From the NCBI GenBank assembly GCA_029975295.1, contig JARKPK010000151.1:1-52074 (forward strand): a DNA stretch of 52,074 nt, read 5' to 3'. Below, one piece after another: positions 1 through 33,649 of this stretch; within the stretch, counting starts at the first letter, position 1, and the number at the start of each line of letters is the position of its first letter. Under the pieces are notes generated by a model, which was given only the letters and a program-made list of their open reading frames with translations, was not told where the DNA came from and searched no databases. The translations under genes were made by a program, and so were the position numbers. The stretch is from Thermoguttaceae bacterium (GTDB lineage: Bacteria; Planctomycetota; Planctomycetia; Pirellulales; Thermoguttaceae).

Positions 1-171
1 CAGTGGAAACTTGTCGGTGTCGATCTCGTCGAGCCCGTCCTCGGTTTGAAGGAAGATGGGTTTCGGCGCTTGGGAGCCGAAGGTGCTCTTGCCGATTCCC
101 TCGGTTCCGTACAGCAGCACGCGAGGCGGCATCGTCTGCCGGCCCCGCTGAATCTTGGCGAACATGCTCAT
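1..171 (-). CDS. Phage-type P-loop ATPase (AAA_24/Sak4-like), partial
   Basis: Only the first 57 codons are in the window; the gene continues past the left edge. A Walker A motif, GTEGIGKST, lies about residues 23-31, preceded by PPRVLLYG and followed by QTEDGLDEID. This arrangement is typical of the RecA-like AAA_24 proteins of phages and mobile elements, some of which (Sak4 type) act in single-strand annealing or recombination. The start overlaps the upstream stop as ATGA (169-171 against 168-170), so it should be translationally coupled to the 100-aa gene. The P-loop is seen directly. The recombination role is inferred from family and context, and other phage ATPase roles are possible. Confidence 0.6.
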   Translation of the reverse strand, partial: MSMFAKIQRGRQTMPPRVLLYGTEGIGKSTFGSQAPKPIFLQTEDGLDEIDTDKFPL

Positions 172-470
172 GCGGCGGTTTCCTGGGGTTGAGGGGGTCG
201 CTGGGTGAGGCGTTCGATGCGGAAGGCGTCGGGACCGACTTCGCGGCCGATGAAGCCGACGAACAGGCGGTTGAGATCCCGACCGACCGGCGTGCCCGCG
301 TCGATGACGCAGGCACGCTGGGCGCGGTCGAAATAATGGGCCGCGTCGAGGCGCGTGGCGGCCTCGCCGTGCAGGGCCTCGCAGCCCCAGATCGCCAGGA
401 GCAGCGCGCCTTCGATGTCCTCGGGCCGCACCCGCGCGTCGAAGGCGTAGCGATGGAGGTCCGTCTGCAT
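168..470 (-). CDS. Hypothetical 100-aa protein of the mobile region
   Basis: I do not recognise a family. The protein is acidic to neutral with a helical centre (ALLLAIWGCEALHGEA) and a Pro/Gln-rich tail. The ATG at 470 was chosen because AGGAG sits 6-7 nt upstream; the in-frame ATG at 503 has no ribosome site. The gene lies between the sigma-like gene and the P-loop ATPase on the same strand and overlaps the latter by 4 nt. It probably shares a transcript with both and may be an accessory to the ATPase, though nothing in the sequence proves that. Confidence 0.55.
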   Translation of the reverse strand: MQTDLHRYAFDARVRPEDIEGALLLAIWGCEALHGEAATRLDAAHYFDRAQRACVIDAGTPVGRDLNRLFVGFIGREVGPDAFRIERLTQRPPQPQETAA

Positions 471-544
471 GTGCCGCTCCTGGCGATTCGTTGGGGCCGA
501 CATCTGGATAAAGACCCGGTTGGCCGCCAAACTGACGAGGCGCG

Positions 545-1165
545 CTACAGGTAATCCTTCAGGCCGCGCTCTTCGAACCGGCCGCGCAGCCTGGCGAGCC
601 AGGTGTTCAGCGTGGTCCGTGGGATGCCCATGTCGCGGGCGACCTGGGAGATCGAGTCGTGCTTGAGCCGCTCGCAGAATTCGCGCTGCCGCTCGTCGTC
701 GACGTCCGCCAGGCAGGCGGTCACGTCCAGCCGCAGTTCGGCCAGTTCCTGGTCGCTCCGCTTGACGCGGCCGCGGCGGGAGGGGATTTCGTGCTCCCCG
801 ACCAGGTCGGCCAGTTCCACCGGCCCGTCGGGTGTGCCGATCCGCACGTGGAGCGAACAAGCGCGGCGATGGTCGCGCTTCTCGGCCTCGCCATCGCGGG
901 CCATGCTGACGACGTGGCGGCGGACGGTGATCGCCACCAGCGCCTTCCACTTCGGATCGTCGGGATCGCCGCCGCGCAGGCGGGCGGCGAGTTTCAGATA
1001 CAGCCGCTGTTCGATCTCCTCGCGATCCTGCCGGTGGAAGCCGAATCTGCCGGCGAGCCGCCGCGCGGCCTTGCGGACGAAGCCCTGGGTGAACGGATCG
1101 AGACCTTCATGGATCGCGGCCGACGAACCGTTCGATCCCCCTGTAAGAACTTTCTCCTGGACCAT
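545..1165 (-). CDS. Sigma-70-like (ECF-type) factor of a mobile element
   Basis: This 206-aa protein resembles small sigma factors. The N-terminal part (about residues 25-90) is helical and region-2-like, with REEIEQRLYLKLAARLRG and ITVRRHVVSMARD. The C-terminal part (about 150-200) has a clear helix-turn-helix, SQVARDMGIPRTTLNTWLAR, as in region 4. A basic and acidic linker lies between. The ATG has GGAG about 9 nt upstream. The gene sits behind the terminator at 1246-1283, so it probably has its own promoter and would lead the 100-aa and ATPase genes. It could direct polymerase to genes of the element. A plain DNA-binding role without core-polymerase binding is the main alternative. Confidence 0.6.
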   Translation of the reverse strand: MVQEKVLTGGSNGSSAAIHEGLDPFTQGFVRKAARRLAGRFGFHRQDREEIEQRLYLKLAARLRGGDPDDPKWKALVAITVRRHVVSMARDGEAEKRDHRRACSLHVRIGTPDGPVELADLVGEHEIPSRRGRVKRSDQELAELRLDVTACLADVDDERQREFCERLKHDSISQVARDMGIPRTTLNTWLARLRGRFEERGLKDYL

Positions 1166-1245
1166 TTTGCAAACTCCGACGGGTGGTGTTCCCGCCGTGC
1201 CCGATGCACGGCGACACCCCCCGCCGGTCTTGCAGATAATCGCGC

Positions 1246-1283
1246 AAAAAAAATGCGGCCCCGACGTAAGTCGTGGGACCGCA
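1246..1283 (-). terminator. Rho-independent terminator
   Basis: Read on the minus strand, a GC-rich hairpin (arms 1283-1270 and 1265-1254, loop 1269-1266) is followed directly by eight T residues (1253-1246). The stem is nearly perfect, with mismatches where CCCACGAC faces GTCGGGG. It lies about 60 nt after the stop of the 317-aa gene and about 80 nt before the sigma-like gene. It would therefore end the lexA transcript and separate the two halves of the minus-strand gene run. Confidence 0.7.
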
Positions 1284-1307
1284 GGCTGTTGCGTGATTGA
1301 AATATCC

Positions 1308-1344
1308 GTCTTGCACTTGCAGCAAATCGACCAAAGTGCAAGAC
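1308..1344. repeat. 11-bp perfect inverted repeat
   Basis: GTCTTGCACTT (1308-1318) and AAGTGCAAGAC (1334-1344) are exact reverse complements separated by 15 nt. The repeat begins two bases after the stop of the 317-aa gene and precedes the terminator at 1246-1283. It could be an RNA hairpin protecting the 3' end, part of a double terminator, or a binding site for an element-encoded protein. Confidence 0.75.
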
Positions 1345-1345
1345 G

Positions 1346-2299
1346 CTAGGTTCGTCGCCCCCTGTTGACCGGTCCCTTGAACTTCATGATCTGGTCCAGG
1401 TCGTCGGCGATTTCCCAGTACAGACGCAGTTCCGCCGCCTTCTCATCCTTGAGGCAACGACTGACGTCTGACTCGGACAAGCCGGTTCGCTCGCCGAGCG
1501 CCTTCTGCGTCGGGCGAGGCAGCAATTCCGGCTCGCCCGTCCGCTCCTTGGCTGCGAACGCATGGTCTCGCGCCGCGCGAAGGTGTTCGACCATTTCCCT
1601 GCTCAATGACTCGATGTTGGCGGCTCGATCCGCGCGTTTCTTCGTCGGCCGCCGCACCGGTGTGGCTGGCCCCAGGCCCGCGTCGATCAAGAGTCCCTCG
1701 ACATGGGCGACGTCGAAAACGATCCCTTCGCTGGAGAGCGTCAGCGTCGATTCGAGCGAAATCGTCAGATGGCCGAGCGACTGCCGCCAGAGCGCCGCAC
1801 CGGCCTCCGTCGGCGCGAACAGGATCGCCTTGGGGCGTCGCTGCATGATGTCACGCGCGGCGGCGGCCGCGCCGCGGCGGAAGCAGCGGGCGAACCAGAC
1901 CTCGCGGGAGCGGCCGGCCCAGTTCGCCTTGCCGACCTGCCAGAGGCGATCCGTGATATGCGGCACGATGGCCAGGCTGATCCCCTGAAACGCCGCCGCC
2001 AGCAGCGCCTCGTCGTCGATCCGCCAGCGCCGCAGCAGTTCTTCGGGAACCGGCGTGACGCCGCACGGGCAATGGATGAAACCCGCCTGACCGCCGCCCT
2101 TGCTCGGCAAATAATCGACGCGGCGGCGCTCGCCGCACTCGCAGCAGGTGTGCGATCCGGCGGGCGTCGCCGGCCGCAGAAGCGACCGCTCGCGAAGCGA
2201 CTCGAAGATGGGCTTCAGTTCGCCATGGGCCTCCTCCGCGCCAAAGAGCGGCGGGTCAATCTCCCACCGCGAGAGCACTGGTTTCAGGAGTCGGCGCAC
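1346..2299 (-). CDS. Unknown protein with Zn-ribbon-like cysteines and C-terminal HTH
   Basis: This 317-aa protein is not recognised. About residues 50-80 carry CCECGERRRVDYL followed by HCPCG, four or five cysteines able to bind zinc. The middle (about 100-200) is a mixed domain containing GKANWAGRSREVWFARCF. The C-terminus (about 260-315) has a helix-turn-helix-like stretch, QKALGERTGLSESDVSRCLK. GTG at 2299 is preferred because GGAAGA lies 7 nt upstream; a TTG at 2305 is too close to it. The gene overlaps the end of the 399-aa gene by 44 nt, which implies coupled translation. With LexA and the 399-aa protein it forms an apparent SOS operon. A role as DNA-binding regulator or nucleic-acid sensor is inference only. 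Confidence 0.6.
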   Translation of the reverse strand: MRRLLKPVLSRWEIDPPLFGAEEAHGELKPIFESLRERSLLRPATPAGSHTCCECGERRRVDYLPSKGGGQAGFIHCPCGVTPVPEELLRRWRIDDEALLAAAFQGISLAIVPHITDRLWQVGKANWAGRSREVWFARCFRRGAAAAARDIMQRRPKAILFAPTEAGAALWRQSLGHLTISLESTLTLSSEGIVFDVAHVEGLLIDAGLGPATPVRRPTKKRADRAANIESLSREMVEHLRAARDHAFAAKERTGEPELLPRPTQKALGERTGLSESDVSRCLKDEKAAELRLYWEIADDLDQIMKFKGPVNRGRRT

Positions 2300-3455
2300 G
2301 ATCAATCTTCCAGCGTTTCAAATACTTCTGGATCAGTTCCACTCGCTCGGGCCGGGCGTTGCGGAGGCCGCACGAGCGGGGATACCCGACATCGAAGCTC
2401 TGCTGGCCGTGCTTTCGCCCCTCCAGCGGCAGGAACTCGAAGCAGAACGTGACGAGCGTCACGTTCCATTCGGAAAGGGGAACGGTCTCCAGGTTGACGC
2501 ACTCCTCGATGGCCTTGTGGATGTTGTCCTCCGGATCGTCGTCGTCCACCTCGATGAGCATGCGCCGCCCGCCGTATTTCGCCGACAGCCGCATCTTGCG
2601 GATACGCACGCGCAGGCGGTCGGCCGGATCGGGCGTCAGGTCGAACGCCGGGTTCTTGAGCTGGTTGAGCTCGTACACGGCGTCCGGTTCATGGGGGCCG
2701 ATCTCCCAGTGCAGGATCGCGTCGGCGAAGATCGCCTCCAGCTGTTCCTTCATCGGCTTGGGCAGCTTGGCGAACGTCTCCAGCGTTCCCTCCTCGCGGT
2801 CGTAGGCGAACGCGATCAGCATCGTCTGGCGGAACGCCTCCGCCGTGAGCCGGCCGTGCTCATCGTGAACGGTGACGTTCTGCACGAAATCGTCGGGATA
2901 GGCGAGGAAGTAGTCGACGCCGCCGATAATCGTCGTTTCGACGGTGCAATCCTTGCCGCGGCCTTGCGACTTGAGCAGCGTGGAGATGTCCCGCTCCATT
3001 TGCGCTTTGGCGTCCGCCGACATGTCCGGCTCGTTGGCCGGCAGGTCGTTGCGTTTGCGCCACCAGGCCATGTGCTCGACGGTATGGATCACCTGGGCCC
3101 GCTCGAACACCGGACGGTGGTGGAGCCAGACCCACATCGCCCGCCCGTAGAACGAGAGGTCGTCGGGCACCAGCGAGGCTAGGCCCGCGACGCCGCAGTG
3201 CGGGGCCGCTTCGATCAGCGACTGAAAACCGCTTTCGCAGGCCAAGTCGAACACGCTCCGCAGCACGCTCTCGATCTCGTTGAGGCGATCCAGTGGGAGT
3301 TCGCCGAGGTAATCGAGAATCGGGTCAATCTCCTGGCTGCGAAGTTCGCGCCAGCGCGGATCGAAGTCGCCGTGCCCCAACTCGCGGAAGCACTCCTCGA
3401 GCAGCGCGTTGGGCGTCATCCGCAAAACGGTTGGAATGGAAAACTGTCGTGACAT
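2256..3455 (-). CDS. Unknown 399-aa protein in the lexA operon
   Basis: No family recognised. It is a soluble, acidic protein without signal peptide or membrane segment. Notable stretches are GHGDFDPRWRELRSQEIDP near residue 25, the aromatic MWVWLHHRPVFERAQ near 110, and an acidic patch EVDDDDPEDN near 310. The open frame continues upstream through lexA, but ATG 3455 follows GGGAGGTGA by about 11 nt and sits 8 nt after the lexA stop. That start gives sensible protein, whereas the upstream frame is Arg-rich shadow. It lies directly downstream of the LexA-type gene and overlaps the 317-aa gene, so the three are probably co-transcribed. Confidence 0.65.
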   Translation of the reverse strand: MSRQFSIPTVLRMTPNALLEECFRELGHGDFDPRWRELRSQEIDPILDYLGELPLDRLNEIESVLRSVFDLACESGFQSLIEAAPHCGVAGLASLVPDDLSFYGRAMWVWLHHRPVFERAQVIHTVEHMAWWRKRNDLPANEPDMSADAKAQMERDISTLLKSQGRGKDCTVETTIIGGVDYFLAYPDDFVQNVTVHDEHGRLTAEAFRQTMLIAFAYDREEGTLETFAKLPKPMKEQLEAIFADAILHWEIGPHEPDAVYELNQLKNPAFDLTPDPADRLRVRIRKMRLSAKYGGRRMLIEVDDDDPEDNIHKAIEECVNLETVPLSEWNVTLVTFCFEFLPLEGRKHGQQSFDVGYPRSCGLRNARPERVELIQKYLKRWKIDRAPTPETSALAVGD

Positions 3456-3463
3456 TCGATGAT

Positions 3464-4117
3464 TCACCTCCCTGCCGGGTGTCGTATCGCAATGACCTTT
3501 CCAAGTATCCGAAAGTCGGTTTCCGGTGAGACCGCGATCGGTTTGTAACGCTTGTTTTCGGGCCGCAGTTCGATGCGGTCCCCTTGAATCGACAGCCGCT
3601 TGACCGTCGCCTCGTCCCCCAACAGCGCGACGACGATCTCGCCGCTCTCGGCCACCGGCTGGCGGCGCACGATCACCACGTCCCCTTCGCGCATCCCCGC
3701 GCCGACCATGCTGTCGCCGGAGATCACCAGCGCGAAGCACGCTCCGCGGCCGGCGACGGCGCTCTCGACCAGGATGTGCCCCGCGAGGTTTTCTTCGGCC
3801 AGCATCGCCGGCCCCGCCATCACCAGTCCCAGCAGCGGCACCTCGACCAGTGTGTCGATCTCCCGCTGGGGTTCGCGCACGACCGCCAGACTGCGCGCCT
3901 GGCGCGGCTGTCGCGTGACGTAGCCCTTGCGCTCCAGCTGCTTGACCAACTGGTGGGCGCTGGCGGCGGTCACGTCGAGCAAAGCGCCGAGTTCCTGCAT
4001 GGTGGGCGGATACCTTTTGCGGGCGATGAAATCGCGTAACACCTCGAGCGTCCGTCGCTGGGCGTCGGTGATCTCATCCTGATTCGGACGTCCCGGCCCC
4101 TTGCGGCTGGCTGCCAT
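3464..4117 (-). CDS. lexA: LexA-type self-cleaving repressor (S24 peptidase)
   Basis: This 217-aa protein has the full LexA layout. A winged helix-turn-helix spans about residues 15-75 (RRTLEVLRDFIARKRYPPT, then LGALLDVTAASAHQLVKQL). The Ala101-Gly102 cleavage site lies in VMAGPAML. Catalytic Ser136 is in SGDSMVGAGMREGD and Lys173 in EATVKRL. All cleavage residues are present, so it should respond to RecA filaments or act as an immunity repressor of the element. It stands at the divergence point of two operons and probably controls both. Its neighbours suggest it belongs to the mobile element rather than being the host's main LexA; that point is inference. Confidence 0.9.
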   Translation of the reverse strand: MAASRKGPGRPNQDEITDAQRRTLEVLRDFIARKRYPPTMQELGALLDVTAASAHQLVKQLERKGYVTRQPRQARSLAVVREPQREIDTLVEVPLLGLVMAGPAMLAEENLAGHILVESAVAGRGACFALVISGDSMVGAGMREGDVVIVRRQPVAESGEIVVALLGDEATVKRLSIQGDRIELRPENKRYKPIAVSPETDFRILGKVIAIRHPAGR

Positions 4118-4164
4118 CGGTCGGCTTTCAATTAGCGCTGATGAACGTCAATGCGAGCTTACGG

Positions 4165-4193
4165 TTTATAGCGGTTTTGAGGGGTTAACGCAA
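4165..4193 (-). promoter_or_regulatory. Candidate lexA promoter
   Basis: On the minus strand there is a -35-like TTGCGT (4193-4188), a 17-nt spacer and a -10-like TATAAA (4170-4165). This gives a leader of about 40 nt before the lexA ATG at 4117. Two palindromes lie just upstream, AGCATGCT (4193-4200) and GTGCTAGCAC (4201-4210), the first touching the -35. That placement fits an operator, but no planctomycete LexA box is known to me well enough to claim a match. Confidence 0.5.
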
Positions 4194-4246
4194 GCATGCT
4201 GTGCTAGCACTTACAAGTCACTCCGGCGCAATGACTTGCGAATTCG
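4193..4246. promoter_or_regulatory. Palindromes in the divergent lexA/recombinase promoter region
   Basis: Three perfect palindromes sit between the divergent operons: AGCATGCT (4193-4200), GTGCTAGCAC (4201-4210) and CGAATTCG (4239-4246). They are plausible binding sites for the adjacent LexA-type repressor. The sequences differ from one another, so at most one is likely to be the operator. Confidence 0.35.
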
Positions 4247-4307
4247 AACCGCGAATGCCGCAGGTGAATCGTCGTCAGTTTCCGCCCGCACCGGGTCGTT
4301 AACAGGC

Positions 4308-4610
4308 ATGGCAATTTCCGCGAAATCGGCTCGCGCCGCCCCCAGCACCGGGATGTTCATGCGATTAATCGACGACGTTTCCGAACTCACTCCCGACCAG
4401 CGCCGCCGCGAGCTGGTCGCCATCCTCGCTGTTGGCGTGCTGCGCCTGCGGCAGCGCCGCCTGCGGGCCGGCGAACCGGCCGCATCGCCGCCAAAAACCG
4501 CTCCAGATTCCACTGCCAACGCCTTGAGGTTTCGGAAGAAACCGTGCTCAGTGTTCCCACGGTTTAACGGTTTCGAGAGTCCCGAACACAAGGAGCGAAG
4601 CAGATGTTGA
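4308..4610 (+). CDS. Small protein of the DUF2924/recombinase module
   Basis: This 100-aa protein has a conserved-looking core, SELTPDQRRRELVAILAVGV, about residues 22-42. I associate this core with small genes placed before DUF2924 and recombinase genes in planctomycetes. The tail is low in complexity and ends SPEHKERSRC. The stop overlaps the DUF2924 start as ATGTTGA, so translation is coupled. The start is uncertain: ATG 4308 has only a weak AACAGG upstream, and ATG 4353 is an alternative that keeps the core. Function unknown; context suggests a role in recombination or its control. Confidence 0.6.
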   Translation: MAISAKSARAAPSTGMFMRLIDDVSELTPDQRRRELVAILAVGVLRLRQRRLRAGEPAASPPKTAPDSTANALRFRKKPCSVFPRFNGFESPEHKERSRC

Positions 4611-5101
4611 ACGTAAGTAAAGAGGTCGCCGCGCTGGAGCGGTTGACCGTCGGCGAGCTGCGCGAGCGGTACGCCGAGCTTTTTCAGGAGACGACGCGGG
4701 CCTGCAACCGCAAGTGGCTCGTCCGCCGGATCATCTGGCGGATGCAGTCGCTCGAAGGAGGTGGGCTGTCCGATCGTGCCCGCGAGCGGGCTGACGAACT
4801 CGCCAACACTTCCGACTTGCGGGTCACTGCGCCACGCGAGGCCAAGCCGTCATCGGACGCGCCCGAACGCACCCTGACCGCCCCGTGCCGCATCAAAGGC
4901 GGTTCGCGTCTTCCGCTTCCCGGCACGCTCGTCACGCGCCGCTATAAGGGCCGATTGATCCAGGTCCAGGTCGTCGCGGAAGGCTTCGTGTTTGAGGGCG
5001 ATCTCTACAAGTCTCTCAGCGCCGTGGCGAAGAAGGTCACCGGCTCCCATTGGAACGGCTTCAAGTTCTTCAACCTCGAGAAGGAAGGGGGTGCGGCATG
5101 A
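4604..5101 (+). CDS. DUF2924 domain protein
   Basis: The 165-aa protein matches the DUF2924 pattern. The N-terminal part has VAALERLTVGELRERYAELF and NRKWLVRRIIWRMQ. The C-terminal part has PGTLVTRRYKGRLIQVQV, FVFEGDLYKSLSAVAKKVTG and HWNGFKFF. The family is found next to serine recombinases in phages and mobile elements; its biochemical role is not established. AAGGAG lies 8 nt before the ATG. It overlaps the gene before it by 7 nt and the recombinase by 4 nt (ATGA), so the three proteins are probably made together. Confidence 0.85.
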   Translation: MLNVSKEVAALERLTVGELRERYAELFQETTRACNRKWLVRRIIWRMQSLEGGGLSDRARERADELANTSDLRVTAPREAKPSSDAPERTLTAPCRIKGGSRLPLPGTLVTRRYKGRLIQVQVVAEGFVFEGDLYKSLSAVAKKVTGSHWNGFKFFNLEKEGGAA

Positions 5102-6657
5102 AACGCCACAGTCAATCGAAGCAGACCTCGGCAGTGCGATGCGCCGTCTATACGCGCAAGAGCACCGAGGAAGGTCTGGAGCAAGAATTCAACTCGCTCG
5201 ACGCCCAGCGCGAGTCGGGCGAAGCGTTCGTCGCCAGCCAGCGCCACGAGGGCTGGCAATGCCTGAGCGAGCACTACGACGACGGAGGTTTCACCGGCGG
5301 GAACATGGACCGGCCGGCGCTCAAGCGACTCTTGGGCGACATCGAGGCGGGCAAGATCGACTGCGTGGTCGTCTACAAGGTTGACCGGCTCAGCCGCAGC
5401 CTGCTCGATTTCGCCCGCATGATGGAGACGTTCGAGAAGCACGGCGTCTCGTTCGTCAGCGTCACGCAGCAGTTCAACACGGCCACTTCGATGGGCCGCT
5501 TGATCCTCAACGTGCTCCTCTCATTCGCCCAGTTCGAACGAGAAATGATCAGCGAGCGTGTCCGCGACAAGATTGCTGCCACGCGCCGCAAGGGCAAATG
5601 GTCGGGCGGCATGCCGTTGTTGGGCTACAATGTCCACGAGACGAAACTGGTCGTCGAGGAAGTCGAGGCCCAGAGGGTCCGGCAGATCTTCGAGATGTAT
5701 CTCGAATACCAGGCGCTGCTGCCGGTGGTGACCGAACTCAACCGGCGCGGCTGGACGACGAAGCATTGGACGACCAAGAAGGGCATCCACCGCGGCGGAC
5801 GGCTCTTTACCAAGAACAGCTTGTACGCACTGCTCACCAACGTCACGTACATCGGCCAGATTCGTTACAAGGACGAAGTGCATCGGGGCGAGCACCAACC
5901 GATCGTGCCGGATGAGTTGTTCCGCAAGGCGCAGGCCCTGTTGCAGCGGAACGGACATACTGGTGGGCGGGCGGTTCGCAATAAGCACGGCGCGCTCTTG
6001 CGCGGCCTGTTGCGCTGCGGACCATGTGGATGCGCGATGTCCCACACCTATACCGCCAAAGGGAACCGCCGCTATCGCTACTATGTATGCGGCACGGCCC
6101 AACAGCGCGGCTGGTCGGAGTGTCCTTCGCCCTCCGTCCCCGCTGGCGAGATCGAGCGGTTTGTTGTCGAGCAGATCAAAGGCATCGGCCGCGACCCGGC
6201 GGTCGTCGCGGAAACCGTGCGGCAGGTTCGCCAACAAACGGAGGCCGGCATCAAGCGGTTGGAACAAGAGCGATCGGCCCTTCAGCGACAACTGCGCGAC
6301 GACCACGCCAGGTTGCAGGCCGCGGCGGCAATGACGGACGACGTCGAACGCGTCTCGCACCTGGCGAACATGCAGGAGTGCGTCCGCGTTGCCGAGCGCC
6401 GGCTGACGGAAATCGACAACGAGCTCATCGCGCTTCGCGGCGAGCTCGTGGAAGAAACTGAGGTATCGAAGGCCCTGGCCGAGTTCGACCAGATGTGGGA
6501 AACGCTCGCGCCGCGAGAGCGAGCCCGTGTCTTAGAACTTCTCGTCGAACGGGTCGAATACGACGGTCAGCGCGGCAACGTCTCGCTGACGTTTCACCCC
6601 TGCGGCGTCAAATCGCTTACCCACGAACTCACCAACCGCCAGGAGGACGCTGCATGA
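5098..6657 (+). CDS. Large serine recombinase
   Basis: A 519-aa site-specific recombinase of the resolvase/invertase superfamily. The catalytic domain (about 12-160) contains AVYTRKSTEEGLEQEFNSLD with nucleophile Ser22, then VVVYKVDRLSRSLLDF and SFAQFEREMISERVRDKI. A recombinase domain follows (about 180-290). The zinc ribbon comes next (CGPCGCAMSHT ... YYVCGT ... SEC), and then a coiled-coil segment (about 380-460). Length and domain order are complete. It would integrate, excise or switch DNA of this element. The start overlaps DUF2924 by ATGA. It has no recognised directionality factor, although the flanking small proteins are candidates. Confidence 0.92.
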   Translation: MKRHSQSKQTSAVRCAVYTRKSTEEGLEQEFNSLDAQRESGEAFVASQRHEGWQCLSEHYDDGGFTGGNMDRPALKRLLGDIEAGKIDCVVVYKVDRLSRSLLDFARMMETFEKHGVSFVSVTQQFNTATSMGRLILNVLLSFAQFEREMISERVRDKIAATRRKGKWSGGMPLLGYNVHETKLVVEEVEAQRVRQIFEMYLEYQALLPVVTELNRRGWTTKHWTTKKGIHRGGRLFTKNSLYALLTNVTYIGQIRYKDEVHRGEHQPIVPDELFRKAQALLQRNGHTGGRAVRNKHGALLRGLLRCGPCGCAMSHTYTAKGNRRYRYYVCGTAQQRGWSECPSPSVPAGEIERFVVEQIKGIGRDPAVVAETVRQVRQQTEAGIKRLEQERSALQRQLRDDHARLQAAAAMTDDVERVSHLANMQECVRVAERRLTEIDNELIALRGELVEETEVSKALAEFDQMWETLAPRERARVLELLVERVEYDGQRGNVSLTFHPCGVKSLTHELTNRQEDAA

Positions 6658-7079
6658 ACGGTCAACTCACCGTGACGCGACAGTTCCACGTCGCCCGCCG
6701 AAACCACGGCCGCAAACAATTCCGCGACGGCACAGCGCCCGACGTGCCAATGGGACGCATCCCGCGGATCGCCCGCCTGATGGCGCTGGCGATCCGCTGC
6801 GAGAAGTTGATCCAGGACGGCGTCGTGGCCGACCAGTCGGAACTGGCCCGCTTCGGGCACATTACGACCGCGCGGATGACGCAAATTATGTCGCTGCTCA
6901 ATCTGGCCCCCGACATCCAGGAGCAGATACTCTTCCTCCCACGGACAAAGCGCGGGCGCGATGTGGTGAAAGAGACGGACATCCGACCTATCGCCGCAGT
7001 GCTCGACTGGCGGAAACAACGGCGGATGTGGGCGGGGGTCCAGCGCCGCATTGAACACGACGACGATGGTTCGCGGTAG
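6654..7079 (+). CDS. HTH (ParB-like) protein following the recombinase
   Basis: This 141-aa basic protein contains PRIARLMALAIRCEKLIQDG and SELARFGHITTARMTQIMSL (about residues 35-90), a helix-turn-helix resembling the ParB/KorB DNA-binding fold. A motif IRPIAAVLDWRKQRRMW lies near the end. The ATG overlaps the recombinase stop (ATGA) and has AGGAGG 6-7 nt upstream, a strong site. As the last gene of the operon it may bind DNA near the recombination site or serve as a regulator or directionality factor. That is inference from position and fold. Confidence 0.7.
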   Translation: MNGQLTVTRQFHVARRNHGRKQFRDGTAPDVPMGRIPRIARLMALAIRCEKLIQDGVVADQSELARFGHITTARMTQIMSLLNLAPDIQEQILFLPRTKRGRDVVKETDIRPIAAVLDWRKQRRMWAGVQRRIEHDDDGSR

Positions 7080-7348
7080 GTTGCGTCCGCCTCGCGGTCC
7101 CAACCAGAGTGTTAACAAGCAAGGTGGTCTTAAACCGAGAGCGAGAGAGTTCGCGGGCGATTTCTTGAACCAGCGGAAGCAACCCTTCGCCACGGCGCTC
7201 TACATGGGGCGATGGAGAGAGTAGGTTAAACGCCGCCATCGTCGCAAACTCTTCCGCAGCCTGCGGATAACTCGCGACCTGCGAAAACCATCTTTTGCGA
7301 CCGGAGAGCTAACTGCCGTATCGCTCTGGTTCCGCAAGAGTAAAGCAG
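7080..7348. other. Non-coding stretch at the possible right edge of the mobile region
   Basis: No convincing gene is present between the last recombinase-operon gene and the tRNA. Open frames here read as low-complexity shadow. If the element ends in this window, its right junction should be here, but no direct repeat can be matched because the left end is outside the window. Confidence 0.3.
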
Positions 7349-7422
7349 TACCCCGGGCGTGACTCGAACACGCAACCCGCAGCTTAGAAGGCTGCTGCTC
7401 TATCCGATTGAGCTACCGGGGC
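7349..7422 (-). tRNA. tRNA-Arg (anticodon UCU)
   Basis: The minus strand folds into a standard tRNA. The acceptor arms are GCCCCGG and CCGGGGT with discriminator A; the D arm is GCTC/GAGC; the anticodon stem is GCAGC/GCTGC with loop CTTCTAA. The anticodon TCT lies at 7388-7386. The T arm is GCGTG/CACGC with loop TTCGAGT. The CCA end is not encoded. UCU reads AGA and AGG, codons that are rare at high GC. It lies 270 nt from the recombinase operon. Confidence 0.93.
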
Positions 7423-31177: not shown

Positions 31178-33649
31178 CTACTCCACGCGCCACTCGTGGA
31201 TGCCGGCGGAGAACTTCTCGGGCAATTGCACCTCGATCCGCAGTGCGGTGGTTTTTACCGGGTCGAAGGTGGTGCGATTGTATTGATCGGGTTTGCAGCC
31301 GAAGCCGCTGGGATTGTTCACCGGCCGCCACTGGTCGCCGTCGCGGTAGAGCAACCGCCAGCCGGCGGGCACGCGGCACTCGCCCCGTCCGGTATCGTCG
31401 AACCAATAGACCTCGACGGCCGACACCTCGGTCGGCTCGGCGAAGTCGTATTGCACCCATTCGGTGGTGCCTTTTCGCGGCCACCAGTGGAGGAAGCGGT
31501 GGGTGTGGTCGCCCGACGATTTCGGCTCGCGCTGGTCGTTCAGCGCCTTCACCTCGCCGCCGGAGGCCGATGCCTTCGCCTTCGAGGCGATGGTTGGGGC
31601 GGGCAAGGGCACAGCGGCCGACTCTTCTCGGGCGAGCCAAACGGCCATCTCGCCCGGCCCGCGATGCGCCCAGGCATAGTACGGTATCGCGACGATCTTC
31701 CGCGGCTCGCGCAGGTGCGGCTTGCCGACGCCGGCGCGGGTCAGCCCGAACCCCTCGGTTTCGACGACCATCACTCCGCCGAGCAGGTCGCTGCGCCATT
31801 GGGTTGAGAGCTTGGCCTCGTCCGGCAGCAGCAGGTTGAGCACTTGGCCTTGCGCCACGTCGGGCCACTCGACGCAATAGACCAACGGCCCGCGCTGCAA
31901 CGCCACGCGCCCCCGATTGGCCTCGACCTTCTCGTGCGACACCACGCGGCGCACGGGCATCGGCAGGCGGAGTTCCACGGTGTCGCCGGCCTGCCAGGCC
32001 CGCGTCACTCGGGCGTAGCCCAGTTCGACCGAGATCGCCTGCTTCTCGCCGTTAACCAGCAATTCCGGCGAGGAGGGGTCGTTATCGGCAAAGCGGTACA
32101 AGTCGCTGGGCACGGGTTCGTTCCGCGCCCAGCCGGGAATCCGCACGCACAACGTCCATTGCTTGCCGGGCGCCGATGGGGCGACCTCGATCTTCACCGC
32201 TCCGTCCCAGGGATAATCGGTTTGCTGACGTAAGACGACCTTCGCATCGCCGCCTTCGCCCACGGCGACCTCTGCCCGGCCGCTGACGAACAGGTTGACG
32301 TACACCTCGCCATTTCGCTGGGCGTAAGCGTAGCCGGGGATCGACGCCATGAAGCGGCACACATTGCTGGGGCAACAGGCGCAGCCGAACCACGGGCTGC
32401 GCTGATGCCGGCCGTCGGACTCGAGCGGGTTCGGGTAGAAGAACGACTTGCCGTCCATCGAAACGCCGGAGATCACGCCGTTGTAAAGCGTGCGTTCCAG
32501 CACGTCGATGTATTTCCCTTCGCCGTGCAATAGGAACATCCGATGGTTCCAGAACACGTTGCCGATGGCCGCACAGGTTTCGCAGTAGGCGGTCAGATTG
32601 GGCAGCTCGTAATCATCGCCGAAGGCCTCGCCGGCCCCGCGGGCGCCGATGCCGCCGGTAACATACAACTTCCGCCCGACGACGTTCTCCCAAATCGCCT
32701 TCAGCGCCTTCAGGTATCCTTCGTCGCCGGTCAGCGCGGCCACGTCGGCCATGCCCGAGTACATATACACCGCGCGGACGGCATGGCCCACCGCCTCGGT
32801 CTGTTCAACGACCGGTTTGTGGTCTTGGCTGTAGGGTCCGTACAGACGGTGCGTTTCGGCACGGCCGCGGATGTCGAGAAAGTATTTGGCCTGATCAAGG
32901 TACTTGCGATCGCCGGTGGCGCGGTAGAGTTTGACCAGCCCGATCTCGATCTCTTGATGTCCGGGCGGCCAGGTTTGCGATTTGCCCGGCCCGAAGGTAG
33001 CGCAAATCAAGTCGGCATTCTTGATCGCCACGTCGAACAGCGAGCGTTTGCCCGTCGATTGATAGTGTGCTACGGCGGCCTCGAACATGTGCCCGGCGTT
33101 GTAGAGCTGATGGGCGCTGCCTCCGTTCGACCAACGGTCGTTGCGGTTGGGCCGGCAGCCCACACGCTCGAAGTTCTCCACGGTGTCGCGGGCGGTCCAG
33201 AGAGTGTAAAGGAAACCGTCTGGCTCTTGCGCGGCGGCATAATAGCTGATGATCTCGTCGAGGTAGGCGTCGAGCTTCGGATCCTTTCGGGCGGCCATGC
33301 AGTAGGCGGCGCCTTCGATCACCTTCGACACGTCGGAGTCGTCGAAGCCCGCCCCGCCGCGCCACCGCGCCTTCGACAACCCGCCGGCGACCTTGAAATT
33401 CTCGATCCGTCCGGTTTCCTCGCACTTCTGGAAAGCGAAGGGCACCGTGACCGAGTGATTCGTCTCGATCCGCGGCGACCAGAATTTGTCGGCGAAGTGG
33501 ACCGCCGTGAACGGCACGGGCCGATAGGGATAATCGCTCTTCGTCTGCTCGTCGGCGAGCAGCCGGTTCAACCCGAACGCCGCAAAACAAACGGCCATGC
33601 CTCCGACCACACCGATAATTCCCCGGGCAAATCTTCCGCAGATTCTCAT
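31178..33649 (-). CDS. Secreted GH127 beta-L-arabinofuranosidase-like enzyme
   Basis: An 823-aa exported enzyme with signal segment FARGIIGVVGGMAVCFAAFG. The GH127 (DUF1680) catalytic barrel spans about 40-440. Key family residues are visible: AYCETCAAIGNVFWNHRM with Glu357 and Cys359, and GCACCPSNVCRFMA with Cys425 and Cys426. In characterised GH127 enzymes these groups bind zinc, and the second set supplies the cysteine nucleophile. Beta-sandwich domains follow to about 690, then a galactose-binding-like module (WVQYDFAEPTEVSAVEVYWF) to the end. ATG 33649 has AAGGGAG upstream. It should release L-arabinofuranose from plant or algal glycans outside the cytoplasm, feeding the araA/araD-like genes nearby. 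Confidence 0.88.
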   Translation of the reverse strand: MRICGRFARGIIGVVGGMAVCFAAFGLNRLLADEQTKSDYPYRPVPFTAVHFADKFWSPRIETNHSVTVPFAFQKCEETGRIENFKVAGGLSKARWRGGAGFDDSDVSKVIEGAAYCMAARKDPKLDAYLDEIISYYAAAQEPDGFLYTLWTARDTVENFERVGCRPNRNDRWSNGGSAHQLYNAGHMFEAAVAHYQSTGKRSLFDVAIKNADLICATFGPGKSQTWPPGHQEIEIGLVKLYRATGDRKYLDQAKYFLDIRGRAETHRLYGPYSQDHKPVVEQTEAVGHAVRAVYMYSGMADVAALTGDEGYLKALKAIWENVVGRKLYVTGGIGARGAGEAFGDDYELPNLTAYCETCAAIGNVFWNHRMFLLHGEGKYIDVLERTLYNGVISGVSMDGKSFFYPNPLESDGRHQRSPWFGCACCPSNVCRFMASIPGYAYAQRNGEVYVNLFVSGRAEVAVGEGGDAKVVLRQQTDYPWDGAVKIEVAPSAPGKQWTLCVRIPGWARNEPVPSDLYRFADNDPSSPELLVNGEKQAISVELGYARVTRAWQAGDTVELRLPMPVRRVVSHEKVEANRGRVALQRGPLVYCVEWPDVAQGQVLNLLLPDEAKLSTQWRSDLLGGVMVVETEGFGLTRAGVGKPHLREPRKIVAIPYYAWAHRGPGEMAVWLAREESAAVPLPAPTIASKAKASASGGEVKALNDQREPKSSGDHTHRFLHWWPRKGTTEWVQYDFAEPTEVSAVEVYWFDDTGRGECRVPAGWRLLYRDGDQWRPVNNPSGFGCKPDQYNRTTFDPVKTTALRIEVQLPEKFSAGIHEWRVE

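Follow-up and report, generated by a model that had tools for sequence, protein, structure and literature searches.

In phage lambda, the leftward operon cI-rexA-rexB is followed by oL and N, and oR and cro lie on the rightward side. As described in excerpts of PMC11077077, RexA tunes the lambda switch, shares the fold of RdgC and relates to Iml3 and Chl4, and RdgC lowers the RecA-dependent cleavage of LexA. The structure 8TWQ is that of RexA (excerpt of PMC12894663). The Hex protein of phage 434, made with the repressor, blocks the RecA-stimulated cleavage of the 434 and P22 repressors; in the same excerpts (PMC3564112), it blocks cleavage of neither lambda repressor nor Escherichia coli LexA. 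In wStri, a Wolbachia strain with WO phage, a recombinase gene stands immediately downstream of a DUF2924 gene (excerpt of PMC10299305). A locus to be set beside these systems occupies positions 1–7422 of contig JARKPK010000151.1 (Thermoguttaceae bacterium, assembly GCA_029975295.1); the whole stretch of 52 074 nt analysed is called the window. Leftward run lexA and the genes of a 399-aa and a 317-aa protein, then a leader, a sigma-like gene, a 100-aa gene and sak4; rightward run a small open reading frame (ORF), a DUF2924 gene, an integrase gene and a gene for a helix–turn–helix (HTH) protein.

The locus is probably that end of a temperate, siphovirus-like prophage which holds its genes for integration, immunity and early control, cut by a contig edge and carrying a switch built on LexA and the leader. 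Its identity as a prophage is, by itself, near certain. As a mobile unit it is an ordinary phage; what is new is the RNA and the anatomy of the switch. Among the literature matches listed (e.g. 10 of 40, 12 of 19 and 8 of 451), none describes this prophage group, the module or the leader.

Prophage genes on two contigs

Genomes are labelled G (G000 being the window's own), loci L and contigs C. The window starts at the left end of contig C140, one of 190 in the assembly, and the leftward gene set is cut there, inside the gene for a Sak4-like ATPase (AAA_24) that anneals single-stranded DNA. The window holds its N-terminal 57 residues (1–171, minus strand), 72% identical to the Sak4 protein of the G009 prophage (phrog_124, 2.6e-47; PF13479, 1.4e-53). 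Residues 62–262, 75% identical to the same protein, lie at the right end of contig C155 (G000:C155:24121–24723), so that four residues are missing. The 24 723 bp of C155 also hold relatives of the G009 prophage genes for SSB, RusA, helicase, primase-polymerase, ParB-methyltransferase, terminase large subunit and tape measure; the replication, terminase and tape-measure genes were named by the best family of their G009 relatives, and the portal (PF05136, 9.2e-58) and capsid (PF25209, 4.3e-43) genes were typed directly on C155. Integrase, terminase, portal, capsid and tail genes are all present across the window and C155. In G000, the 399-aa protein and the phage helicase have a single match each, and hence no second copy competes for the join of C155 and C140, which appear to be adjacent.

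The large serine integrase and the phage genes on C155 rule out an insertion sequence (IS) or transposon, and the initial annotation was right to see a mobile module rather than a simple IS. It had called the mix 'not a system I can name'; with C155 the name can be given, as the immunity, integration and early region of a temperate tailed phage. An integrative element that is not a phage, or a defence or genomic island under LexA control, would fit the lack of any structural phage gene within the window alone, where the left end is unseen, and the related elements of G047 and G227, which appear to stop just past terL, no capsid gene having been seen in them. Such an element is very unlikely, because portal, capsid, terminase and tape-measure genes adjoin the same replication genes on C155. 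Since the close relatives of the module in G047 and G227 are ~15-kb units ending at terL, a phage satellite that is not self-sufficient could also be considered; it was rejected for the window's copy, which has head and tail genes on C155, and its probability is very slight. The locus is thus best read as part of a temperate phage.

The related ~15-kb elements lie in G047:C1 (L056:17700 to L057:13036) and G227:C1 (L060:17690 to L061:12720), bounded alike, on the integrase side and at the terL stop codon, and with TerS and TerL inside; no portal or capsid was found among 10 proteins scanned in the stretch and its flank. They are possibly phage satellites with their own terminase. Further relatives of a tail gene located at the left end of C155 occur at G000:C4:36506–37288, C147:1228–2019 and C189:50424–50612, which suggests more prophages or prophage pieces in G000.

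Immunity genes and the structured leader

The gene at the divergence of the two gene sets (3464–4117, minus strand) encodes a phage LexA repressor with an HTH and an S24 peptidase domain (PF01726, PF00717). It scores 162.5 bits with TIGR00498 against a cut-off of 110.95, in agreement with the complete LexA-type repressor initially recognized there. A101 G102, S136 and K173 are invariant in seven of seven sequences; the first pair is presumably the Ala-Gly cleavage site, and the other two the catalytic Ser/Lys dyad. The host's other LexA is encoded on C11 and has, by eye, a different DNA-reading helix; in the 3.5-kb surroundings of that gene, no core-motif match and one two-mismatch match to the 12-base form were found.

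Two candidate operators lie upstream of the phage lexA, O2 (AGCGCTAAT on the minus strand, 4131–4142) and O1 (TGCTAGCA, 4202–4209), with a candidate lexA promoter between them, read by eye as TTGCGT-17-TATAAA (4165–4193, minus strand). GCTAGC is found upstream of lexA in six of eight loci, and a AGCNCTAAT-type (AGC-CTAAT-type) site in seven of eight, or six with the pattern of the chance estimate; the variants of this second site are AGCCTTAAT, the only form in L082, and AGCGCTATT in L090. The two sites are 69–70 bp apart in four loci and 222 bp apart in L081. Mononucleotide shuffles give chances per locus of 2.5% and 1.2%, as a guide only, since the motifs were picked post hoc and the loci are kin. 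The repeated sites suggest that LexA binds O1 and O2. LexA control of the prophage is likely, and the position of a LexA-type repressor at the divergence makes DNA-damage induction plausible.

Eight nucleotides beyond lexA, the genes of the 399-aa (2256–3455, minus strand) and 317-aa proteins (1346–2299, minus strand) overlap by 44 nt; the start of the first was called at 3419, and the one conserved in relatives is 3455. The 399-aa protein (phrog_37634) was modelled with AlphaFold2 (mean pLDDT 87, pTM 0.60). In Foldseek searches of the PDB, E. coli RdgC comes first (2owl, E 1.6e-4, probability 1.00, TM 0.27/0.34) and rows one to seven all belong to RdgC or CENP-N, with chain N of kinetochore complexes, which makes up two of them, taken as CENP-N. 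In a viral structure library, three nameless phage proteins (2.4e-5 to 4.2e-4) precede a 'Recombination-associated protein' in fourth place (1e-3). VIA-align gives Z 8.4 for chain N of a yeast complex (Chl4/CENP-N; 177 aligned, rmsd 6.0, residues 59–255), 7.8 for human CENP-N, and 6.2 for both RdgC (223 aligned, rmsd 8.0, residues 127–393) and Iml3. The predicted fold is assigned to the RdgC/CENP-N/Iml3 group because the best structural rows fall in one published group (RexA/RdgC/Iml3–Chl4). From the model, the protein probably shares an RdgC/RexA/CENP-N-type fold and an analogous position, not family membership. The resemblance to CENP-N/Chl4 covers a helical as well as a sheet region (residues 59–255) with a borderline Z; if it reflects true homology, this phage family might bear on the origin of the kinetochore proteins CENP-L/N.

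Sequence proof of homology with RexA or RdgC did not come from profile comparisons. With hhalign, neither the RexA profile (four sequences, E 0.26) nor the RdgC profile (three sequences, E 0.85) gave a signal, and since RexA against RdgC gave none either, the test has low power with such thin alignments. The 399-aa protein has no match to PF04381 (RdgC) up to E 0.1, and PF04381 was not found in three relatives' genomes searched (G138, G047 and G009). Lambda RexA belongs to phrog_12654, and its structure 8TWQ is not among the 50 listed Foldseek and VIA-align rows, an absence that is not evidence. The 317-aa protein has zinc-ribbon-like cysteines (C52, C55 and C77, invariant in 11 sequences) and a C-terminal HTH; against known folds, no VIA-align row exceeds Z 5.3 and the best Foldseek E is 0.036.

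Could the pair serve phage defence or superinfection exclusion, like RexAB, instead of tuning the switch? Exclusion of other phages is described for RexA-type proteins (excerpts of PMC11077077 and PMC12894663), and the pair shares with rex its genomic position and an RdgC/RexA-type predicted fold. On the other side, PADLOC gives no convincing family (best 0.011 for the 399-aa protein, none for the 317-aa one), the zinc-ribbon cysteines and HTH of the latter contrast with Pseudomonas putida RexB, an inner-membrane protein (PMC12894663, excerpt), and the pair also occurs beside an integrase rather than a repressor. Exclusion is a real possibility, if the lesser one. With RexA, RdgC and 434 Hex as precedents, the 399-aa protein most likely adjusts the induction threshold.

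The 399-aa protein has relatives in 25 of the 248 class genomes (G000 counted), five viral contigs and 24 loci of named genomes; there is none among 50 697 phage records (INPHARED). The following counts refer to the 27 relatives with a called 399-aa gene (29 loci), many of them on short contigs. The 317-aa gene comes next in 15 of 27, and tblastn adds L079 and L084 to the loci with its sequence; 13 have an integrase and 10 a sigma-like gene. In L077, L082, L086 and others, DUF2924-integrase stands beside lexA-399-317-leader-sigma-like-100aa-sak4-ssb with the order kept. The module also occurs in a cultured relative, SV_7m_r (CP036272), in copies that are perhaps incomplete. The sigma-like unit and its leader are divergent from lexA in four loci (L064, L090, L133 and L134). 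The distant members (L092, L095–L101) show no other module genes in the stretch examined, except a helicase match in L098 and L099. The synteny comparison proposed earlier thus bears out a module whose genes are found side by side in many relatives, the most distant loci of the 399-aa gene excepted, and as the gene order recurs in other loci, the arrangement is not due to chance. The contig of L087 (a 'Fimbriimonadales' metagenome-assembled genome, JAOACB010000054.1) matches the G009 prophage (G009:C1) at 99.0% identity along 11.7 kb, as far as the ParB-methyltransferase gene, from either mis-binning or a very recent shared phage.

The 180-nt gap between the 317-aa gene and the sigma-like gene, absent from the initial annotation, is the most interesting non-coding part. 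It holds the 5′ leader of the sigma-like gene (1165–1345, minus strand), with three hairpins indicated by folding and covariation. The gene itself (545–1165, minus strand) is a sigma-like early gene, resembling the extracytoplasmic function (ECF) type (phrog_1740 sigma factor, 1.1e-7). The stretch 1150–1345 (minus strand) folds at −96.1 kcal/mol, against −65.4 ± 4.3 in shuffles (z −7.1). A covariance model of the leader has 19 matches, spread over 16 of the 397 class genomes (G000 counted), and in nine of nine further loci tested the leader is directly 5′ of a sigma-like ORF, similarity being short or weak in L008, L009 and L015 (E 6e-13 to 8e-6). In a MAFFT alignment of 26 distinct leaders, 28 of the 50 pairs have two-sided changes. 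Cells changed on both sides number 107, against 38.5 in shuffles (reached by 0 of 500) and 17–39 with the pairing slid; on one measure, further pair types, 51 of 500 shuffles reach the observed value. Since these sequences also served to build the structure, the comparison is biased in its favour; unpaired cells make up 20%. No Rfam 15 family reaches its gathering score, the best chance match having E 0.25 and 17.9 bits against 50.

Hairpin 1 (1307–1345, minus strand) is an inverted repeat with 12-bp arms, a 15-nt spacer and a TTGCA...TGCAA core (helix 1; 88.2% of cells paired). Hairpin 2, followed by eight T (1246–1283, minus strand), is terminator-like, and seven of the eight pairs of its helix 3 show changes on both sides. 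Hairpin 3 (1168–1234, minus strand; helices 5 and 6) holds the GGAG just before the start codon of the sigma-like gene, and is proposed as a brake on its translation. A T-run, defined as at least six T in eight with a threshold set after the sequences were seen, follows hairpin 2 in 19 of 20 leaders with the 317-aa gene just upstream (the exception is L088) and in two of six without it (L078 and L131); the four divergent leaders among these have none. As the T-run mostly tracks the 317-aa gene, hairpin 2 may be the terminator of the lysogenic operon. The initial annotation had one leftward set; its genes stand, as a single unit it does not, for the leader with its terminator-like hairpin separates what are probably two transcription units, lexA-399-317 and then sigma-like-100aa-sak4 and onward.

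The inverted repeats might instead act as DNA sites, as an operator or as iterons of a replication origin, with RNA folding secondary. The core of hairpin 1 hardly varies, copies of a GATTTCGTGCAACT-like unit stand both in hairpin 1 and ahead of hairpin 3, and by eye all copies of TTGCA/TGCAA in L066 have changed together to TTTCA/TGAAA. Against this, the stems of hairpins 2 and 3, whose arms are separated by loops, show compensatory changes on both sides, and the T-run goes mostly with the placement of the 317-aa gene. DNA sites are a somewhat unlikely account of the leader as a whole, and a structured RNA is the reading retained; for hairpin 1 and the repeated unit, an additional DNA or protein-binding role is possible. 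An ECF or sigma-70 promoter in the leader was unconvincing by eye, and a scan gave none on that strand. Mutually exclusive terminator and antiterminator folding was also discarded, as the alternative pairing would enclose, not break, hairpin 2. L078 has an insertion-like 1045-aa frame (4203–7340), read from the other strand, which separates the 317-aa gene from the leader and spares the latter.

Integration side and neighbouring genes

The relatives of the window are mostly planctomycetes. The rightward set begins with a conserved small ORF that is real (4308–4610, plus strand; 100 aa from the ATG at 4308), the conserved core being the 83 aa from the ATG at 4359 (4359–4610); by eye, look-alikes precede DUF2924 in L077, L078, L079, L082, L086 and G009. 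The DUF2924 protein (4604–5101, plus strand; PF11149, 5.9e-41) is followed by a large serine integrase of 519 aa (5098–6657, plus strand; phrog_95, 1.4e-124), in which the Resolvase, Recombinase and zinc-ribbon domains are all present (PF00239, PF07508 and PF13408 over cut-off), and by a 141-aa HTH-type protein (6654–7079, plus strand; phrog_14161, 4.9e-17 with the longer frame) with a weak ParB/KorB-like match (PDB profile 4umk, ParB, 0.019) and matches to ribosomal S13/S15 proteins at 0.03–1. In the leftward set, the 100-aa protein between the sigma-like gene and sak4 (168–470, minus strand) is conserved, with relatives in 10 loci, and no family matched it in library scans, two of which covered its C-terminal 91 residues. 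All genes listed in the initial annotation (lexA, the 399-aa, 317-aa, sigma-like, 100-aa and P-loop genes, DUF2924, recombinase and HTH) were found at their coordinates, and its rightward 100-aa ORF held up with a core of 83 aa. Its statement that nearly all junctions overlap by 4–50 nt went too far: five of eight overlap (by 4, 44, 7, 4 and 4 nt), and the others are gaps, of 8 nt between the 399-aa gene and lexA, 74 nt between the 100-aa and sigma-like genes and 180 nt between the sigma-like and 317-aa genes.

The HTH gene stops at 7079, and the right end of the element would lie within 7080–7347. Next comes a chromosomal tRNA-Arg(tct) (7348–7422, minus strand), with its 3′ end towards the prophage. 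Integration into this tRNA with duplication of its 3′ end was rejected, the tRNA end being repeated neither in C155 nor in the window. The G009 prophage also adjoins a tRNA, tRNA-Asn (L071:4192–4264), with its 3′ end facing the element and no long repeat of the tRNA end; a terminator-like stem-loop (by eye) follows this tRNA beside the element, and tRNA adjacency may therefore be incidental. No empty site was found among the relatives examined, none of which is of the same genus as the window's genome. A comparison of G227 with G047b for att borders, with homology from 17690 to the terL stop at 32720 (joined G227 stretch), gave no readable shared core. To the right of the tRNA, a 181-aa gene without name and genes for HbpS-like, thymidylate kinase, ATP-sulfurylase and TauE proteins look like host-type sequence. 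Host-type genes are found on that side; neither of the refuting outcomes named in the initial annotation, unrelated contexts in close relatives or host housekeeping loci in the left part, was encountered.

The DUF2924 protein partly matches the RAMA domain (weak Pfam match, 0.037), a link also made in an excerpt of PMC11342252, and the prophage carries a ParB-DNA methyltransferase gene (G000:C155:15639–17033). Methylation-sensitive recombination could be imagined from this combination. The 804-aa ParB-methyltransferase of the G009 prophage (L070:9348–11762) contains an intein-like Hint region that splits it (PF14890, 6.1e-8, just below cut-off); relatives are shorter, with 464 aa on C155.

A possible switch and its relation to known systems

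In the lysogen, the phage LexA, acting at two palindromic sites ~70 bp apart, would repress its own promoter (lexA-399-317) and possibly also the integrase side; the lexA-399-317 transcript would end at hairpin 2, leaving the early operon off, and hairpin 3 would hide the ribosome site of the sigma-like gene. Upon DNA damage, RecA-stimulated self-cleavage of LexA would release repression. The sigma-like protein would then be made and drive sak4, ssb, rusA, helicase and primase, and the serine integrase and its partners would excise the prophage. The 399-aa protein would bind DNA without sequence preference and tune the switch, in a RexA-like manner or by damping RecA as RdgC does, with the 317-aa zinc-ribbon/HTH protein as its coupled partner. 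The roles of both proteins and of the leader are proposals. A more ambitious version, a lambda-type switch assembled from other parts, is rather doubtful: a LexA repressor, an RdgC/CENP-N-fold protein that sets the RecA threshold in the place of rexA, a zinc-ribbon/HTH partner, and a new three-hairpin RNA class that gates an ECF-like sigma factor in lieu of N/nut.

A number of observations weigh against a prophage end with such a switch. The ends of C155 and C140 do not overlap in sequence, and no left prophage end is seen: C155 starts with a repeat, IS-like by eye (C155:1–130), also present at C87:1–130, C5:29881–30010 and C66:67113–67241, at or near contig ends, and the tail gene there is cut (~126 of 260 residues), so that the window's copy may be defective. 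A search of G000 for a counterpart of a 424-aa gene further along G009, meant to locate the missing end, found none. The search for att direct repeats suggested in the initial annotation found none; the left part was traced to C155 instead. Only 6 of 27 relatives have lexA directly upstream of the 399-aa gene, and at four loci (L084, L087, L089 and L093) it is integrase-HTH, not lexA, that precedes this gene; a repressor operon is thus no general rule. The loci share descent, and the operator motifs, like the T-run threshold, were chosen with the sequences in view. A consensus scan lists no promoter on the minus strand, the candidate lexA promoter included, and a simple terminator scan omits hairpin 2, with four terminator-like sites against 6.2 in shuffles. 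For the 399-aa protein, the RdgC matches have low TM scores and a single PDB row has E < 0.001; in VIA-align, phosphoglucomutase (Z 6.2) and adaptin (Z 6.0) leave RdgC not distinct. Finally, with TIGR02937 the early regulator scores 33.5 bits (2.9e-8), under the cut-off of 42.9, and is therefore called sigma-like and not an ECF sigma factor.

The locus provides a defined, testable switch for temperate phages of planctomycetes, and a conserved structured leader that has no Rfam 15 match and is tied to one phage gene. It suggests that the layout of a repressor, an RdgC-fold protein and a partner recurs with LexA instead of CI; such a recurrence would help to decide whether RexA-type proteins mainly tune the lysis–lysogeny switch or exclude phages.

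Compared with known systems, the locus has most in common with the lambda immunity region. Both have a leftward operon made up of a repressor gene, a gene of RdgC-type fold (predicted here) and one more gene; after a regulatory gap comes a leftward early operon with its own regulator, and divergent genes lie beyond the operators. They differ in that the window has a true LexA where lambda has CI, zinc-ribbon cysteines and an HTH in the 317-aa protein where RexB has another make-up, a sigma-like gene with a structured leader where lambda has N/nut, and an integrase module where lambda has cro; the 399-aa protein is also without sequence similarity to RexA. From the RexAB/RdgC/Iml3–Chl4 (CENP-L/N) group, into which its best structural matches fall, the 399-aa protein differs by an extra N-terminal helical region, the lack of PF04381 and the lack of a profile signal. 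Like 434 Hex, it would be made together with the repressor and may bear on the induction threshold, but it is a different protein. The succession of DUF2924 and recombinase genes is that of wStri, to which the window adds an HTH-type gene and a LexA neighbour. Finally, the repressor shares its domain make-up and a TIGR00498 score above cut-off with the bacterial SOS LexA, and differs from it as a phage-borne second copy.

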